DNA from: Methanomicrobiales archaeon HGW-Methanomicrobiales-1
GTDB lineage: Archaea > Halobacteriota > Methanomicrobia > Methanomicrobiales > Methanospirillaceae
Length of the DNA: 64,000 nucleotides
Assembly (NCBI GenBank): GCA_002839675.1
Contig: PGYM01000002.1
Coordinates: 352,111 to 416,110, forward strand
Direction of reading: 5' to 3'
The notes under the pieces are model-generated. The model made no database searches, had not been told where the DNA came from, and saw only the letters and a list, made by a program, of their open reading frames with translations. The position numbers and the translations under genes were made by a program. Positions 1 through 9,998 of the stretch are shown here, piece after piece (positions within the stretch are counted from its first letter, which is position 1; each line of letters begins with the position of its first letter).

Positions 1-1136
1 TCCCCGGGAACGAAGAGGGCGGGGTCATCCGGCAGGTCCAGATCCTTGAGGATCGTTCTGGTTGCGGGATTGGCATACGTGATCGTACCGTTTGCGTCGA
101 GCTCGATTATCGCATCCGGGTTCAGTTCCGGGAAACTTGCCAGCCACTGGATTCGCTCTTCTGCAATTTTGCCCTCGGTGATATCATGCGTTACGACCAG
201 GGCCCCGCCGAGGCTCCCCTCGCTGCTCCGGAGGGGAAGGGCGGAGTTGAGGACCACCTTGTGGATGCCACCGGAACACTTGATCTCGATCTGCTCCTCG
301 AGTGTTGTCTCGCCTTTTTCAACCGCTCGTGCCCCAGCCCAGTTACGGGCCTCTATCCGGGCCCCGTCTTCCAGCCGCCAGCACGTGCATTCCGGGAACT
401 TATGGGGGATCCTGGAACAGTTCCTGCCCCAGATCCGCTCCGCTTCCGGGTTGATGGTAGTAACCACACCCTTAGCATCCAGGATCATGACTCCTACCGG
501 AAGAATTTCAATAACGGTTTTTAAGAGCTGCTCGCTTTCGCGCCGGGCCCGTTCTGCCTGCTTGATATCCGTGATGTCGCTGATTGCCACCCGCATTGAA
601 GGTTCGTTGCCGCTGCCGATGAGCCTGACACCTTCCAGCCGGGCATGAAACGGAGGCCGGTCACCCCGCCTGAGCATGAGGGTGGCTGTGTGTTTCTTTT
701 CTGACTGCAGCAGAGTGATGAAATACTGGTCCCAGATCTCCATATCTTCAGGAACAATCCAGGTCCTGAACCGTGCATTGATCAGCCTGCTGCGGTCAAT
801 GCCGAGGAGCACCGCAGCAGACAGGTTCACCTGTGAGATCAGTGCCTTGTCAGTCAGGGTGAGATAGCCAAGAGGGGCGAAATCATACAGGTCGAGGTAC
901 TGGTCCCGGGACTCTTCGAGCTCGAGATGCGCTCTCCGGAGTTCTTCCGCCTGTGTTTCGAGCTCGATCTGGTGCACCTGGAGTTCGTGAATGAGTTCTT
1001 CTGCCGTCTGCCTGGTAAGGTCGGGAGAACGCTTCGTTGCGTGTGCGAGCTGTTCCTCAGCATAATCCCGCAAAGAACGTCCGTTGCCCGGGGTGCCCGT
1101 GTTCTTCGCTTCCGGTCTCTTCTTTCCCGCTGCCAT
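1..1136 (-). CDS. PAS-domain sensor protein (3' part lies beyond the window edge)
   Basis: The reading frame opens at an ATG (1136) and stays open to the left edge, so only about 378 N-terminal residues are seen. A basic linker is followed by the helical stretch 'HELQVHQIELETQAEELR', typical of the N-terminus of archaeal and bacterial PAS sensor kinases. At least two PAS domains follow (around residues 70-190 and 200-320), and a third starts at the edge ('NPDAIIELDANGTITYANP'). Such proteins usually end in a histidine kinase, but that part is outside the window, so kinase activity is only inferred. It starts 14 bases after the CheB-CheR-PAS gene and is probably cotranscribed with it, making the two likely partners in one signalling route. 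Confidence 0.85.
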   Translation of the reverse strand, partial: MAAGKKRPEAKNTGTPGNGRSLRDYAEEQLAHATKRSPDLTRQTAEELIHELQVHQIELETQAEELRRAHLELEESRDQYLDLYDFAPLGYLTLTDKALISQVNLSAAVLLGIDRSRLINARFRTWIVPEDMEIWDQYFITLLQSEKKHTATLMLRRGDRPPFHARLEGVRLIGSGNEPSMRVAISDITDIKQAERARRESEQLLKTVIEILPVGVMILDAKGVVTTINPEAERIWGRNCSRIPHKFPECTCWRLEDGARIEARNWAGARAVEKGETTLEEQIEIKCSGGIHKVVLNSALPLRSSEGSLGGALVVTHDITEGKIAEERIQWLASFPELNPDAIIELDANGTITYANPATRTILKDLDLPDDPALFVPG

Positions 1137-4649: not shown

Positions 4650-4663
4650 ATGCAAAACGATAA
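4517..4663 (+). CDS. Possible 48-residue small protein or leader ORF
   Basis: An ATG at 4517 opens a 48-codon frame ending in TAA at 4661-4663, which overlaps the ATG of the next gene (4650) by 14 bases. The predicted peptide begins MTIVYAGITLVQM and ends WIHAKR; it is partly hydrophobic and basic at its C-terminus. The TATA box at 4498-4506 predicts a transcript start near 4528, inside the frame, so an internal ATG at 4553 is the more likely start if it is translated at all. It could be a translational leader or a chance frame. Confidence 0.25.
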   Translation: MTIVYAGITLVQMITIKGLVKVLTAWVYFNPGWLKRNWCKGIWIHAKR

Positions 4664-5201
4664 CGAACAGAAAAACAACGGTGCATCGGTAACGTTCCGG
4701 ACAATTGCTCATTTCTACGACCCGGATGATCCAACACCCGAGAACAACCGGGAACTCTCGGACCGGGCCGAGGAGAAGATCTTCCGGGAAGTGCTGGACG
4801 TGGGATCCCAGATGGGTCACTGCGATCAGATAGAGATCGCTCTCCCCCAGTCCGAGATGACATCCGAACGGCAAGCCGCGATCCCTTCTTCGATCCGGTC
4901 CCATTTCCGGTCACGTGCGGGTGAGGTGCAGCGGGATATGCGGCTTACCCAGAAAGTTGGTCTCCGCGAGTTCCGGCTGACGCTTGCAGTTTGTATTCCC
5001 TCGTTTATCGGCATAGCCATCTGTTCCCAGTTCAAAGGAGATCCTCTCGTAGAAGTGATCGAGAACGTGCTGGTGATCTTCTGCTGGGTGACGATCTGGC
5101 AGCCATTCCAGTCGCTCGTGTTCGACCGGTGGACCCAGTCCGAAACGGCAAAAGTTTACCGGAAGATTGCGGAGATGGCAATCAGCGTGAGGGCGGCGTA
5201 A
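4650..5201 (+). CDS. Membrane protein of unknown function, two predicted helices
   Basis: I do not recognise this 183-residue protein. The first ~110 residues are polar and charged and look cytoplasmic. Two hydrophobic segments follow at about residues 109-127 ('RLTLAVCIPSFIGIAICSQ') and 135-157 ('VIENVLVIFCWVTIWQPF'), with a short basic tail. A weak ribosome-binding site (AAGGGG) lies before the ATG. It stands alone, divergent from the CheB-CheR-PAS gene and followed by a gene with its own spacing, so context gives no function. Confidence 0.75.
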   Translation: MQNDNEQKNNGASVTFRTIAHFYDPDDPTPENNRELSDRAEEKIFREVLDVGSQMGHCDQIEIALPQSEMTSERQAAIPSSIRSHFRSRAGEVQRDMRLTQKVGLREFRLTLAVCIPSFIGIAICSQFKGDPLVEVIENVLVIFCWVTIWQPFQSLVFDRWTQSETAKVYRKIAEMAISVRAA

Positions 5202-5309: not shown

Positions 5310-5852
5310 ATGGAAGTTGAAATTCTGACAAAAGGCGGACTTCTGGCCCGCGGTATCTTTGCTCTGATAATAGGGATCCTGTGCTTTACCCTCCCGGTGG
5401 GGATGCAGGCAATATTTGCCTACATCATCGGGATTTTCTTATTGATCATTTCAATGGTAACCGGAGCAATCTCTCTAAGCGAGTCCGGCAAGGTGCACTG
5501 GGGTGTGCTCATCCTGTCAATTATCGGTGTGATCATTGCCCTCCTCATGTTCATATCGCCCTTTGCGATGTTCTTTGCCCTGACCATCCTGATCGCGGCA
5601 TGGGCGATCATCACGGGAATTGCAGAACTGGCCATTGCCTACTCCTTAAAGGAACTGCCATTCCGGGTCCTGCTGGGTATCAGCGGGTTTTTCGCCGTTC
5701 TTTTCGGGATCCTGATCGGCTTTGCCCCGATCCCAACCGAGGGATCGGTTGTCTTAATCCTGCTCGTGGGCATCTACTGCCTGTTCCTGGGGATTATCAG
5801 CATCATCGCCGGCCTGTTCATGAAGAAAGGTGAAACGGTCGTAGCGTTCTGA
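5310..5852 (+). CDS. HdeD/DUF308-family membrane protein
   Basis: The 180-residue protein is almost entirely hydrophobic, with six predicted membrane helices in three hairpins. It has the internal repetition of HdeD/DUF308 proteins: 'ARGIFALIIGILCFTLPVG', 'LSIIGVIIALLMFISPFAMF', 'VLLGISGFFAVLFGILIG'. In enteric bacteria HdeD is linked to acid resistance; in archaea the role is unknown and should not be transferred. The ATG fits the family N-terminus. It appears monocistronic: 108 bases from the preceding gene and followed at once by a hairpin with a T-run. Confidence 0.88.
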   Translation: MEVEILTKGGLLARGIFALIIGILCFTLPVGMQAIFAYIIGIFLLIISMVTGAISLSESGKVHWGVLILSIIGVIIALLMFISPFAMFFALTILIAAWAIITGIAELAIAYSLKELPFRVLLGISGFFAVLFGILIGFAPIPTEGSVVLILLVGIYCLFLGIISIIAGLFMKKGETVVAF

Positions 5853-6091: not shown

Positions 6092-6538
6092 TTATGCCTT
6101 GGCCGGGAACAAGCGGTCAACATACGGTGCTGCACCAACAAGGATTGCACCAACAAAAAGCACTATCCATGCATACCCGAAGCTGACGAAGCCTGCGGCA
6201 AACGATGCGATGATTCCCATATCCTTGATGCTGTTATAACCGGTTATCGCATCTACGAAAAAGACAAGGATCGTAATGAAGACCGCGAATCCGGCTCCCT
6301 GGGCTTCCGGAATTTTCTTTACCATGAGGAGGCCGATAATAACCAGTGCGGTAAGGATTAACGCTCCACCGTAAATGGCAAACCCGGCTGTCATAAAAGT
6401 GACCGACAGTGTTTTTCCCAGAATGGTAAGGGAAAATAACGGGACAAAACATCCAATAATGAGAAGGACTGCACCGATGATTCCCACGATCTGGGCCTTT
6501 GAGACCCCGCAAATACTACAGTTTTCCATGCGGTTCAT
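6092..6538 (-). CDS. Small polytopic membrane protein, unknown function
   Basis: This 148-residue protein has four predicted membrane helices (about residues 16-36, 45-70, 80-98 and 108-135). A short N-terminus carries a Cys pair ('NCSICG') that could be half of a metal site or a disulfide; no second pair is present. Glycine-rich helices resemble small archaeal membrane proteins annotated only as hypothetical. The ATG at 6529 is an alternative start. It lies downstream of the six-helix protein on the same strand, 125 bases away, so co-transcription is uncertain. Confidence 0.75.
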   Translation of the reverse strand: MNRMENCSICGVSKAQIVGIIGAVLLIIGCFVPLFSLTILGKTLSVTFMTAGFAIYGGALILTALVIIGLLMVKKIPEAQGAGFAVFITILVFFVDAITGYNSIKDMGIIASFAAGFVSFGYAWIVLFVGAILVGAAPYVDRLFPAKA

Positions 6539-6663: not shown

Positions 6664-7770
6664 TTAGTGTTTTTTTTCCACGATATATCCCTTGATGGCA
6701 GTCAGGGTCGTGCTGTCCATCATCACCGAGAAGTCGAGGTCTACTACAAAGACCGGGAATATCCCGGCAAGCGAATTCCTCTTGATGATGAAGATCTTGG
6801 ATTCGAGCAGCTGGGCACTTATGTCAAACGGGTTCTGGTCCGCATCGGTCGTGGACGGGTTCGATTCCTCCCGGTCAAGGAGCTCCTGTAACGATTGTTC
6901 CTTGAAATCAAAGAGCCGGTCTGCCATTGTCCTGCTGGTGATACCGTGGATATACCGGATAATGAAATACTGGCTGAAGGCGATGACGGCCAAGAGGGCG
7001 AACAGGTGCCCGAGCTCGGCCAGCTGGGACTCGTTTAAAAAGGCGTTCAGGGTAACGCCCGGCAGGTAGATGATGGTGGTCAGGAACAGGAATATGGCAA
7101 GCAGGAATCCGAAGATAAACACTGCTGCGACCAGCTGGGGTGGCAGTCTCTGACGGTGCAGTGTCCGTTTCGCCTTCTCCACTTTCTTTACATACGTAGT
7201 CGAGAAAGGTTCCACCTTCCAGACCAGCAGGTAAAAGGTTACGATAATAGCACACTGGGCAATCACGATAAGCGTGGTGCTGAGCGGGAGTCCCCGGGTG
7301 AAATGGATGAGGGCAAACACGATGTCGATGGAGAAGATCAGCCCGATCCCAAGTGACAGGGCCCGACTGTTCATGAAAAGGGAGTTGATAAACAGCCGGG
7401 TAAACCGGGTGGTCCCGGAGGTGACCCCGATTTCCTTAAGCCATGCATGGAACTTTGATAAGTCCGCTGCCGGAAGGCTTGTGCCCTGGAAATTTGTCGG
7501 GATCAGCAGTGTGATAAAATAATACATATTGAGGTAGAAGCTGGCTGCAATGAAAAGCCCGAAATAATCCGGACGGACGAGAGAGAAGATCACGTTAGTG
7601 AAAATGCACACCAGAAGGATGAGAAGATGTATTCCCGTGTGGCCCCTCGGTGTCATCAGCCCGGCCCGATTCTGCTGAACGGCAGCCAGTTCGTTGCTGA
7701 TAATCTCCCGGAGGGGAATTTCGCTCTCGGTTCCTGAGTTCATCGTGCCGGCAGTCAACGGTGTCACCAT
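6664..7770 (-). CDS. Six-helix membrane protein, unknown function
   Basis: The 368-residue protein has about six predicted membrane helices (residues ~46-64, 70-92, 136-160, 165-186, 213-240 and 252-270) and a cytoplasmic C-terminal half with an acidic linker. I recognise no catalytic motif or family. The ATG at 7743 is an alternative start. It follows the coiled-coil operon on the same strand after 139 bases and could belong to the same functional block, but that is inference from position. Confidence 0.75.
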   Translation of the reverse strand: MVTPLTAGTMNSGTESEIPLREIISNELAAVQQNRAGLMTPRGHTGIHLLILLVCIFTNVIFSLVRPDYFGLFIAASFYLNMYYFITLLIPTNFQGTSLPAADLSKFHAWLKEIGVTSGTTRFTRLFINSLFMNSRALSLGIGLIFSIDIVFALIHFTRGLPLSTTLIVIAQCAIIVTFYLLVWKVEPFSTTYVKKVEKAKRTLHRQRLPPQLVAAVFIFGFLLAIFLFLTTIIYLPGVTLNAFLNESQLAELGHLFALLAVIAFSQYFIIRYIHGITSRTMADRLFDFKEQSLQELLDREESNPSTTDADQNPFDISAQLLESKIFIIKRNSLAGIFPVFVVDLDFSVMMDSTTLTAIKGYIVEKKH

Positions 7771-7909: not shown

Positions 7910-8212
7910 TTAGCCCTTCATTGTATGAATTTTAATGATCCCGGCACAGGATTTGCAGGTATAATATTCATCCTTCCAGCAGGCATCGCACGCCCATCGC
8001 CCGCAGAGAACACACTGGCGGAGCTCTGAGATCGTATGGGGAGTTGAGCAGAGATCACACATGTAACGGGCGAAACTGCCGGGGTCCTTTATGGGAGGCT
8101 CCCCTTGTTTGCGCATCACGGTGATCTCTTTTTTCAGCTCGCGGAGGTGATCGGGAGATTCATTACTTTTTGGAGCTGCCTTTCCGGGCAAGCTCTTTTT
8201 CCAGAGTGTCAA
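7910..8212 (-). CDS. Small Cys-rich zinc-binding protein, last gene of the coiled-coil operon
   Basis: About 100 residues with a basic N-terminus and a C-terminal half rich in CxxC pairs: 'CDLCSTPHTISELRQC', 'CVLCGRWACDACW' and 'YTCKSCAG'. The spacing resembles a treble-clef or B-box/RING-like double zinc site. With the ATG at 8212 the gene overlaps the upstream gene by 50 bases; the ATG at 8118 would remove the overlap and keep all cysteines. A scaffold or nucleic-acid-binding role is possible. Its place at the end of a tight operon of coiled-coil proteins suggests it acts with them. Confidence 0.7.
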   Translation of the reverse strand: MTLWKKSLPGKAAPKSNESPDHLRELKKEITVMRKQGEPPIKDPGSFARYMCDLCSTPHTISELRQCVLCGRWACDACWKDEYYTCKSCAGIIKIHTMKG

Positions 8213-8519
8213 GACGTGCCTCCAGGGTTGACAATGTGGTCTGCATCCCAGACTCGTATTTCTTTAATTCAGCGAGACGCGCTTCGTCGTTTTCGATCTC
8301 CTTGTAGTGCTGTTCCTTAAACTGCTGGAGTTTCGGGTGGGAGACCAGCTGCCATTCCTCAACCATGTGCTGGAAACGGCGGTCAAGGTACTCGTCCACC
8401 CGGCTCTCCACCGGGCGGTCGAGCGAGATATCGCCCTTTGCGCCCCGGATAAAGTAATAGATCAGGAAAATAATCGCACACAATACAATGACGATGATGA
8501 TGAATTCCAGTAAGTCCAT
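8163..8519 (-). CDS. Membrane-anchored coiled-coil protein with the EEW(D/Q)L motif
   Basis: 118 residues: an N-terminal membrane helix (residues ~4-25, 'LLEFIIIVIVLCAIIFLIYY'), then a soluble coiled coil. The segment 'YLDRRFQHMVEEWQLVS' (around 42-58) matches the two adjacent upstream genes at the same relative place. The second half has heptads of Leu, Glu and Lys ('TLSTLEARLDTLEKELA'). It starts 1 base after the stop of the preceding gene, so translation is coupled. I know no family name. It looks like the membrane-attached member of a small paralogous set that could form hetero-oligomeric coiled coils on the inner membrane face. Confidence 0.8.
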   Translation of the reverse strand: MDLLEFIIIVIVLCAIIFLIYYFIRGAKGDISLDRPVESRVDEYLDRRFQHMVEEWQLVSHPKLQQFKEQHYKEIENDEARLAELKKYESGMQTTLSTLEARLDTLEKELARKGSSKK

Positions 8520-8520
8520 C

Positions 8521-8742
8521 TCAGATCATCCCCTTGAGTTTATTGGCACGGTTTTCAAGCTCGGTGAGCTTGTCCGCTGCTGCCTGCCCGAATGCTTTCA
8601 GCCGGGGGACCTCCCGCTCGATCGAATCCAGGCGATCCGTGAAGTTTGCGAGATCTGTTCTGGTGGCAAGATCCCATTCGTCAACGATATTGTTCATCCT
8701 GCGATCAACATACGCATTCAGGTACGTGTCCATGCCGATCAT
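8521..8742 (-). CDS. Small coiled-coil protein with the EEWDL-type motif
   Basis: 73 residues, all predicted helical, without a membrane segment. 'YVDRRMNNIVDEWDLAT' near the N-terminus aligns with both neighbours, followed by a heptad-rich region ('RLDSIEREVPRLKAF', 'KLTELENRANKLKGM'). The start codon overlaps the upstream stop as ATGA. It is the shortest member of the set and reads as the bare conserved core, so this core is probably the functional unit for pairing with the other two. Confidence 0.78.
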   Translation of the reverse strand: MIGMDTYLNAYVDRRMNNIVDEWDLATRTDLANFTDRLDSIEREVPRLKAFGQAAADKLTELENRANKLKGMI

Positions 8743-9056
8743 AATGACTTCTCCAGCGACGTAATCAGATTGTCAAGCTTCTTTGCCCGGCTCTCGACGG
8801 CCATCTTCCCTTCATACAGGCTGCTGATCTCCATGCTCACGGCTGCAAGCCGGTTTTCCAGCTTGTGGAGATCGCTGTCGGTTACCAGGTCCCATTCCTC
8901 GATAATGGCGGCAAAGTTCTTGTCGAAATAGAGATCGAGCGATTTATCGAATGAGGGGAGATGGGACTCAATAGTGCCGGGGATATGGGAGAACTGGTCC
9001 CAGAACGAATCTCCGGTTGCGTTCTGGTTCGGATTCTGGTTAATAACCGGGTACAT
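8739..9056 (-). CDS. Coiled-coil protein with the EEWDL motif and a polar N-terminus
   Basis: 105 residues. An Asn/Gln-rich N-terminus ('PVINQNPNQNATGD') is followed by 'YFDKNFAAIIEEWDLVT' and a coiled coil ending 'LDNLITSLEKSL'. No membrane helix is present. It aligns with the next two genes over about 70 residues, pointing to tandem duplication followed by different N-terminal fusions. The gene ends in an ATGA overlap with the next gene and starts 3 bases after the upstream stop. Function unknown. Confidence 0.78.
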   Translation of the reverse strand: MYPVINQNPNQNATGDSFWDQFSHIPGTIESHLPSFDKSLDLYFDKNFAAIIEEWDLVTDSDLHKLENRLAAVSMEISSLYEGKMAVESRAKKLDNLITSLEKSL

Positions 9057-9059
9057 GGT

Positions 9060-9443
9060 TTATTTCACCTGCTTCTCCTGTTCCTGGATATTTCCTAACA
9101 GATTATCCAGTTTTCTTGTTTTTACGAGATTTTCGAGACGGGTCAGCCGGGTTTCAATAAGTTTTTCCTTTGCAAAGATATTCGTCTCGAGGCCCGCATT
9201 ATCGTCTTCAACGGTTTTTATCTCGGCGGTCTGTTCCATGGAGAGCCGGGTAAACGGGAAGGCTTTCGACTCTTCGTGCTGCTTTAAGAGTTTGAGTTTG
9301 TCCTTTTCCAGTTCAAGCTCAACCGTGCGGTTGGCAGTCTTCATGATGCGTATCTCCCGGACAATGAGATATATAACGACCATAGCGAGAACAACAAGGA
9401 TACCCATGAGGACGGTGTCGGTGATTACTGCTTCTGTTGCCAT
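9060..9443 (-). CDS. Membrane-anchored coiled-coil protein, unknown function
   Basis: 127 residues with an N-terminal membrane helix (residues ~11-30, 'VLMGILVVLAMVVIYLIV') and a long charged helical tail with heptads ('RLTRLENLVKTRKLDNLLGN'). It lacks the EEWDL motif of the next three genes, so it is an associated protein rather than a paralog. It lies 3 bases before the next gene and 45 bases after the lysine-rich gene. The expected topology is a short outside end and a cytoplasmic coiled coil. Confidence 0.75.
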   Translation of the reverse strand: MATEAVITDTVLMGILVVLAMVVIYLIVREIRIMKTANRTVELELEKDKLKLLKQHEESKAFPFTRLSMEQTAEIKTVEDDNAGLETNIFAKEKLIETRLTRLENLVKTRKLDNLLGNIQEQEKQVK

Positions 9444-9488
9444 TTTTTCACCCTGTTACTTTTTACAGTGTTTAAGAACCGGGCCGGA

Positions 9489-9998
9489 TCAGAGTTGATC
9501 GTGAGTGCCGGTTGCCTTCTTTACCGTTTTTTTCACAGATTTGACGGTTTTTGCAGCCGCTTTCCCGACTTTATCAGATGCTTTCTTTGTCTCTTTTTTT
9601 ACCTTGTCGGCAGCTTTTTCTGCGCTGGCTTTGACTTCCCCGGAAGTCTTTTTCACCGACTCGTCAAGTTTGTCAACACCTTTTGAAAACGATTTGTTGG
9701 CATCTGCTGCCGCCTTCTTGATCTTTTCCTGCAGGGGGGGTGTTTTTTTCACAATGACGTCATCATCGTCGTTAAGGCCGATCGTCTTAAGATCCTCTTC
9801 GCTTACCCGGACATGCCCTACCCGGACCATGGTGTCGGCAATGACCGTGACGGTTACTGATTTCTTCGTGGCTTCGTTGACGAGATCCACATGATCCCCT
9901 TCGTGGATTCCCAGGTCGGGCAGGTGTGCGATGTTGAGCCGCACCCGTCCCTGGCTCGGGAATGCCCGCTTCTTAATGGTAAACCGTACCTCTTTCAT
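9489..9998 (-). CDS. Beta-barrel-like N-domain fused to a Lys/Ala-rich histone H1-like tail
   Basis: 169 residues. The first ~85 read like a small double-psi or swapped-hairpin beta barrel, similar in pattern to CDC48/VAT N-domains: alternating hydrophobic residues around 'LGIHEGDHVDLVNEATKKS' and 'LGLNDDDDVIVKK'. Residues ~90-169 are a low-complexity tail of Lys, Ala, Ser and Val ('ADKVKKETKKASDKVGKAAA') with an 11-residue-like periodicity, as in H1 or LEA/apolipoprotein-like helices. Such a tail could bind nucleic acid or acidic membranes. It is the first gene of the operon, with an ATG at 9998. Domain names are pattern-based guesses. Confidence 0.75.
   Translation of the reverse strand: MKEVRFTIKKRAFPSQGRVRLNIAHLPDLGIHEGDHVDLVNEATKKSVTVTVIADTMVRVGHVRVSEEDLKTIGLNDDDDVIVKKTPPLQEKIKKAAADANKSFSKGVDKLDESVKKTSGEVKASAEKAADKVKKETKKASDKVGKAAAKTVKSVKKTVKKATGTHDQL

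Follow-up and report, generated by a model that had tools for sequence, protein, structure and literature searches.

The six genes and their layout

The question raised by this locus is whether six small, closely spaced genes on the minus strand, at positions 7910-9998 of the window (the whole 64,000-nucleotide stretch of DNA that was analysed), make up one molecular system, and if so, what such a system might do. The host genome is 2.47 Mb in size; among named organisms, Methanoregula and other Methanomicrobiales stand closest to it. The six open reading frames that an initial annotation had placed here were all found at those positions, on the minus strand, and in the order of transcription they are designated E, D, C, B, A and R, with the following features.

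9489-9998, minus strand: gene E (169 aa), Lys/Ala-rich amphipathic tail preceded by an N-terminal double-psi beta-barrel similar to the N-domain of Cdc48/VAT
9741-9956, minus strand: double-psi barrel domain of E, residues 15-86, by the coordinates of the CDC48_N match
9060-9443, minus strand: gene D (127 aa), long coiled coil preceded by an N-terminal membrane helix; predicted orientation N-out/C-in
8739-9056, minus strand: gene C (105 aa), soluble paralogue with polar N-terminus, core and coiled coil
8886-8930, minus strand: core motif of C, YFDKNFAAIIEEWDL, from the six-frame motif scan
8521-8742, minus strand: gene B (73 aa), bare core and coiled coil
8668-8712, minus strand: core motif of B, YVDRRMNNIVDEWDL, from the six-frame motif scan
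8163-8519, minus strand: gene A (118 aa), core and coiled coil preceded by a membrane helix; predicted orientation N-out/C-in
8346-8390, minus strand: core motif of A, YLDRRFQHMVEEWQL, from the six-frame motif scan
8442-8513, minus strand: membrane helix of A, residues 3-26, from AlphaFold2 and hydropathy
7910-8212, minus strand: gene R (100 aa from TTG 8212), Prok-RING_2 zinc protein (PF14445)
7946-8059, minus strand: zinc finger of R, C-x2-C-x11-C-x2-C-G-x3-C-x2-C-x7-C-x2-C, modelled by AlphaFold2

The tight packing remarked on in the initial annotation was borne out, since E and D are separated by 45 bases, D and C by 3 and B and A by 1, C and B overlap by 4 bases, and R most likely starts at TTG 8212, within the 3' end of A. 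The start of R was placed inside A because its orthologues conserve an M-x-x-W-K-like N-terminus in the overlap with A, some of them starting there with ATG; the alternative start, ATG 8119, would yield a protein of 69 aa. All six genes are under purifying selection, with dN/dS values of 0.04-0.34 and synonymous change exceeding non-synonymous change.

A common core in three paralogous coiled-coil proteins

Three adjacent genes had been described as encoding a common core followed by a coiled coil, one product having a membrane helix, one being the bare core and one having a polar N-terminus, and these are indeed A, B and C, respectively. The motif reported for the core is real and common to all three, its wording having needed a slight correction to Y-x-D-x2-[FM]-x4-[ED]-E-W-x-L; in the six-frame translation of the whole 64 kb, it occurs three times, once each in A, B and C. 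The proteins are homologous along the whole core in all three pairwise comparisons (hhalign 97.8-98.4%, E 1e-12 to 5e-15), which, as judged by these alignments, shows them to be paralogues. When 102 cores taken from 34 loci were placed in a tree, each of the three proteins fell on one side of a branch (bootstrap 98, 86 and 100% for A, B and C, respectively); each being a single clade, the duplications therefore predate the families that carry the module. All complete loci keep more than one of the three paralogues.

It had been allowed at the outset that the core might belong to a well-known family, and profile searches placed it in none: Pfam, NCBIfam and PDB searches matched no known family to the A/B/C core. 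Solved structures retrieved from the PDB with A and C were essentially coiled-coil matches over the C-terminal part, and no convincing relative of the core motif was seen among them. A relationship of C to the ribosome-rescue factor RqcH/NEMF was considered and rejected; the C profile matched the coiled coils of RqcH in two genomes belonging to a single genus, which was treated as convergence, and the RqcH proteins of module-bearing genomes had no significant match to C in the part of those loci covered. The RqcH/NEMF of one genus (L145:4343-6469) has an 'FNKALDEYFG' stretch and a coiled coil that resemble the core of C. Protein D, described initially as a second membrane-anchored coiled-coil protein, was confirmed as such and its gene belongs to the unit, but it stands outside the motif family; it aligned to A at 56% by hhalign, through the membrane helix alone, and to C at 4%, and was thus ruled out as a fourth paralogue.

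Joint inheritance of the six genes

Conserved synteny of the six genes had been proposed as a test of their belonging together, and homologues occurring singly and scattered as an outcome that would speak against it. The order E-D-C-B-A-R was found in 60 of the 77 loci mapped, a number that includes a few contigs counted twice and does not, therefore, represent 60 independent cases. Loci that depart from the common order are those at contig ends, two frameshifted copies, distant matches to a single family and one copy without R. When separate profiles for R, C, D and E were searched against 247 Halobacteriota genomes, strong Prok-RING_2 matches (R) were obtained in 15, and the D profile matched the same 15 and none besides; the C profile added six weak matches elsewhere to these 15, and the E profile two weak matches in long frames. 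The homologues are thus not scattered singly but occur jointly. Protein A was found in 43 of 150 genomes of Methanomicrobiales, belonging to three families, usually with three matches per genome. Overall, the six genes are inherited as one unit, all or none in the genomes searched.

The unit has no constant outside neighbour, the flanking genes varying between genera. In several genera, membrane genes of the DUF308 (HdeD-like) type turn up repeatedly no more than a few kb from the module, the copy in the window lying at 5310-5852, and three uncharacterised proteins (window 6664-7770, 6092-6538 and 4650-5201) are kept near the module in close relatives only, outside the unit. One genome (G323) carries the module twice; one copy is without R and has an unrelated membrane gene after it, and the other, cut by a contig end, has R (L125:962-2929, L126:3-800).

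As far as searched, the module occurs in no more than three families, all of them Methanomicrobiales, and has been patchily lost. In four genomes of the window's genus or its sister genus, A was absent and no R scored above the cut-off; in one genome (G335) the genes that flank the module elsewhere are near neighbours, separated by an unrelated membrane-protein-like gene, and no trace of the module could be detected. Such patchy loss inside genera indicates that the system is dispensable. Beyond the phylum Halobacteriota, presence was judged solely by a short-pattern scan for close relatives of R, which in 84,980 species genomes returned 23 loci, all titled Methanomicrobiales or unspecified Euryarchaeota. 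Methanosarcina-like Prok-RING_2 proteins were rejected as members of the system, as their genes lie next to metabolic genes and one for a CopG-like coiled-coil protein, with no other subunit present. The small Prok-RING_2-like zinc proteins beside a CopG-like coiled-coil gene constitute another conserved pairing (L148:5800-6015, L147:6508-6699, L149:5465-5650, L049:5857-6048), whose hosts belong to a different family of the same phylum, probably Methanosarcina and its kin. A viral origin was likewise rejected, since no relative of R or A was present in viral contigs; a viral fold search with R gave nothing significant.

The zinc finger protein R

The initial annotation had taken R for a zinc-ribbon protein, an identity that now has to be replaced. 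R matched Prok-RING_2 (Pfam PF14445) at 8.4e-36 and 122 bits, above the cut-off of 22.4, as did all 21 of 21 R orthologues (best E 2.7e-38), and by this profile evidence R is a full member of the family, a binuclear treble clef whose FYVE/RING-like nature had been overlooked; the family itself covers only the 56-residue finger. Its eight Cys residues are invariant, 62 of 64 matching rows show the spacing C-x2-C-x11-C-x2-C-x4-C-x2-C-x7-C-x2-C, and AlphaFold2 modelled the finger domain with pLDDT above 90. The canonical C3HC4 RING reads C-x2-C-x(9-39)-C-x(1-3)-H-x(2-3)-C-x2-C-x(4-48)-C-x2-C (PMC11354881). This Cys/His pattern is not found in R, in which all eight ligands are Cys, the fourth being Cys and not His, and the middle part reads C-x2-C-x4-C-x2-C; the spacing fits FYVE fingers instead. 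Searched against the PDB with Foldseek, R gave Hrs, endofin and EEA1 (FYVE domains) and melanophilin (FYVE_2) as its leading matches, without significance (E 0.2 or worse), and the FYVE and FYVE_2 profiles of Pfam weakly matched 16 and 15 of 21 R members (best 0.0017 and 0.00052, respectively). The likeness to FYVE and FYVE_2 lies in the C-x2-C-G-x3-C-x2-C spacing and in these matches, but R does not have the RRHHCR phosphoinositide-binding signature of FYVE, and has [LI]-[RK]-Q-C-x-[LIV]-C-G instead.

The barrel and tail of E

E had been noted only as a Lys-rich protein, which is correct for its Lys/Ala-rich tail but overlooked the Cdc48-N-like double-psi barrel at its N-terminus. The CDC48_N profile matched E in 21 of 21 orthologues at E values up to 0.01 (best 2.9e-8), the window copy scoring 24.3 bits, below the Pfam cut-off of 35.1, and the first 86 residues of E matched double-psi barrels and Cdc48 chains in the PDB. 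It is to be noted that Molydop_binding also matched 16 of the 21 E proteins, and that double-psi barrels serve many unrelated uses. Unlike Cdc48/VAT, E consists of the barrel alone and the tail; no AAA ATPase domain was matched in its 169 aa in Pfam or NCBIfam. Of 63 orthologue rows, 41 have EL or DL as the last two residues of the tail, and some E proteins end literally in KDEL, a conserved C-terminal tag (window 9489-9998). In three genera of one family, E has a C-terminal TrkA_C-like extension (L041:5334-6068, L125:968-1672, L130:4163-4972); that of L041, the one tested, matched TrkA_C at 2.6e-9.

Membrane topology and the proposed assembly

One strong N-terminal membrane helix is present in every orthologue of A and D, and B, C and E are without one. 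The hydrophobic segment of D was seen in 63 of 63 orthologue rows, with the net charge more positive on its C-terminal side in all of them, and every orthologue of A likewise has more positive charge C-terminal of the helix; therefore, the C-terminal parts of both proteins are predicted to be cytoplasmic. The single-chain AlphaFold2 model of A, which is of low confidence (mean pLDDT 68, pTM 0.28), has helices at residues 3-26 (the membrane helix), 38-56 and 61-70 (both short and lying over the core) and 72-116 (long). The membrane-bound scaffold suggested initially fits this predicted topology, as a putative assembly.

We consider it probable, from sequence and gene order, that the six genes form one operon and that their products form one assembly, predicted to be a membrane-tethered complex on the cytoplasmic face; one complex is inferred from one inherited unit because of the coiled coils, the retention of three paralogues and the common membrane topology. 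As to its shape, we lean towards a membrane-tethered cytoplasmic coiled-coil platform, predicted to present E and R as docking heads. A and D would anchor it in the membrane with their N-termini outside, the coiled coils of A, B and C would hold their cores together in a hetero-bundle for which all three paralogues are needed, and E and R, which look like docking domains devoid of catalytic parts, would be displayed on it. The N-domain of Cdc48 is the part of the ATPase that binds substrates and adaptors, and for this reason it is proposed that E and R may bring to the membrane either clients or a partner, for instance the Cdc48/VAT ATPase. The task is the least certain step of this explanation, and that such recruitment would serve the quality control of membrane proteins, or the organisation of the membrane, is little more than a guess. 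No Cdc48 gene recurs in the module neighbourhood, which counts against the Cdc48 link, and the platform reading has against it the sub-threshold CDC48_N score of the window copy, the varied uses of double-psi barrels, the low-confidence model of A, and the patchy loss.

Alternative explanations

Among other readings, that of a membrane stress or lipid-organising coat, working like PspA, SPFH or phasin, has the coiled coils and the amphipathic tail of E covering the membrane, with R in a structural role. The E tail gave weak matches to apolipoprotein and to stress proteins, weak phasin matches were obtained with 15 of 21 C proteins, and there are the DUF308 genes near some loci, but all these matches fall short of the curated cut-offs and are of a kind that coiled coils and Lys/Ala-rich helices typically produce, and neither a PspA nor an SPFH domain was found in the Pfam and NCBIfam searches, so that a coat appears rather unlikely. 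A membrane-anchored ubiquitin-like ligase is more improbable still. Here R would be the E3, the coiled coils would hold substrates, and the E barrel would pass products to Cdc48 and the proteasome, in the style of eukaryotic ER-associated degradation, in which a RING ligase and Cdc48 act at the membrane. The name of the R family, the Cdc48-N-like domain of E and the membrane-bound unit agree with it; however, R departs from the canonical RING in its Cys spacing and fourth ligand, no homology was seen for the membrane subunits of the module, leaving a resemblance of parts only, and no gene for E1, modifier or JAB was seen recurring beside the module. The reading is also made less likely by the lack of E2 (PF00179) in all 15 module-bearing genomes, although this is a weak negative, as no control genome matched either.

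The TrkA_C-like extensions of E suggest, by their homology, ligand sensing in the three genera that have them (L041, L125, L130) and leave room for a platform in which E would sense a small ligand and control a channel or transporter; since most E proteins are without this domain and no transporter is a constant neighbour, we regard such a sensory or transport-regulating role as quite improbable. That unrelated small genes are adjacent by chance might be argued from the small size of the proteins and their general lack of database matches, but it is refuted by the identical order and the joint presence and absence across three families, and can be given virtually no credence. A known anti-phage defence system was also rejected, as five of the six proteins had no match in PADLOC and none had a specific one; the weak match of the Lys-rich E tail to ZorA is probably due to its low-complexity helix.

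Relation to known systems and significance

R is already known as a member of a curated family; E, D, C, B and A matched no curated family above cut-off in Pfam and NCBIfam, and these five families are without a curated name. The Prok-RING families are said to have been defined, in all probability, by Burroughs, Iyer and Aravind in 2011. No description of the six-gene set was found in the searchable literature, which left out this probable source paper for Prok-RING_2; that paper may mention the module neighbourhood, and an earlier description is thus possible. PMC4506424 cites the 2011 paper for the B-box, a treble clef of prokaryotes, in membrane-protein folding, stability and proteolysis.

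Speculatively, a hetero-oligomeric platform of three paralogous coiled coils, on which a FYVE/RING-like finger and a stand-alone Cdc48-N-like domain are paired at the membrane, could represent an undescribed archaeal membrane machine; elsewhere, such a pairing is known from membrane quality control and trafficking in eukaryotes. Although three families of methanogens, a group of global importance, inherit the module as a unit, the whole molecular system is uncharacterised, and the locus supplies the little-studied Prok-RING_2 family with concrete partners. Should the Cdc48-N-like and FYVE/RING-like subunits indeed cooperate at the membrane, the module would offer a simple archaeal setting for testing how parts of this sort came to be combined before or outside eukaryotes.
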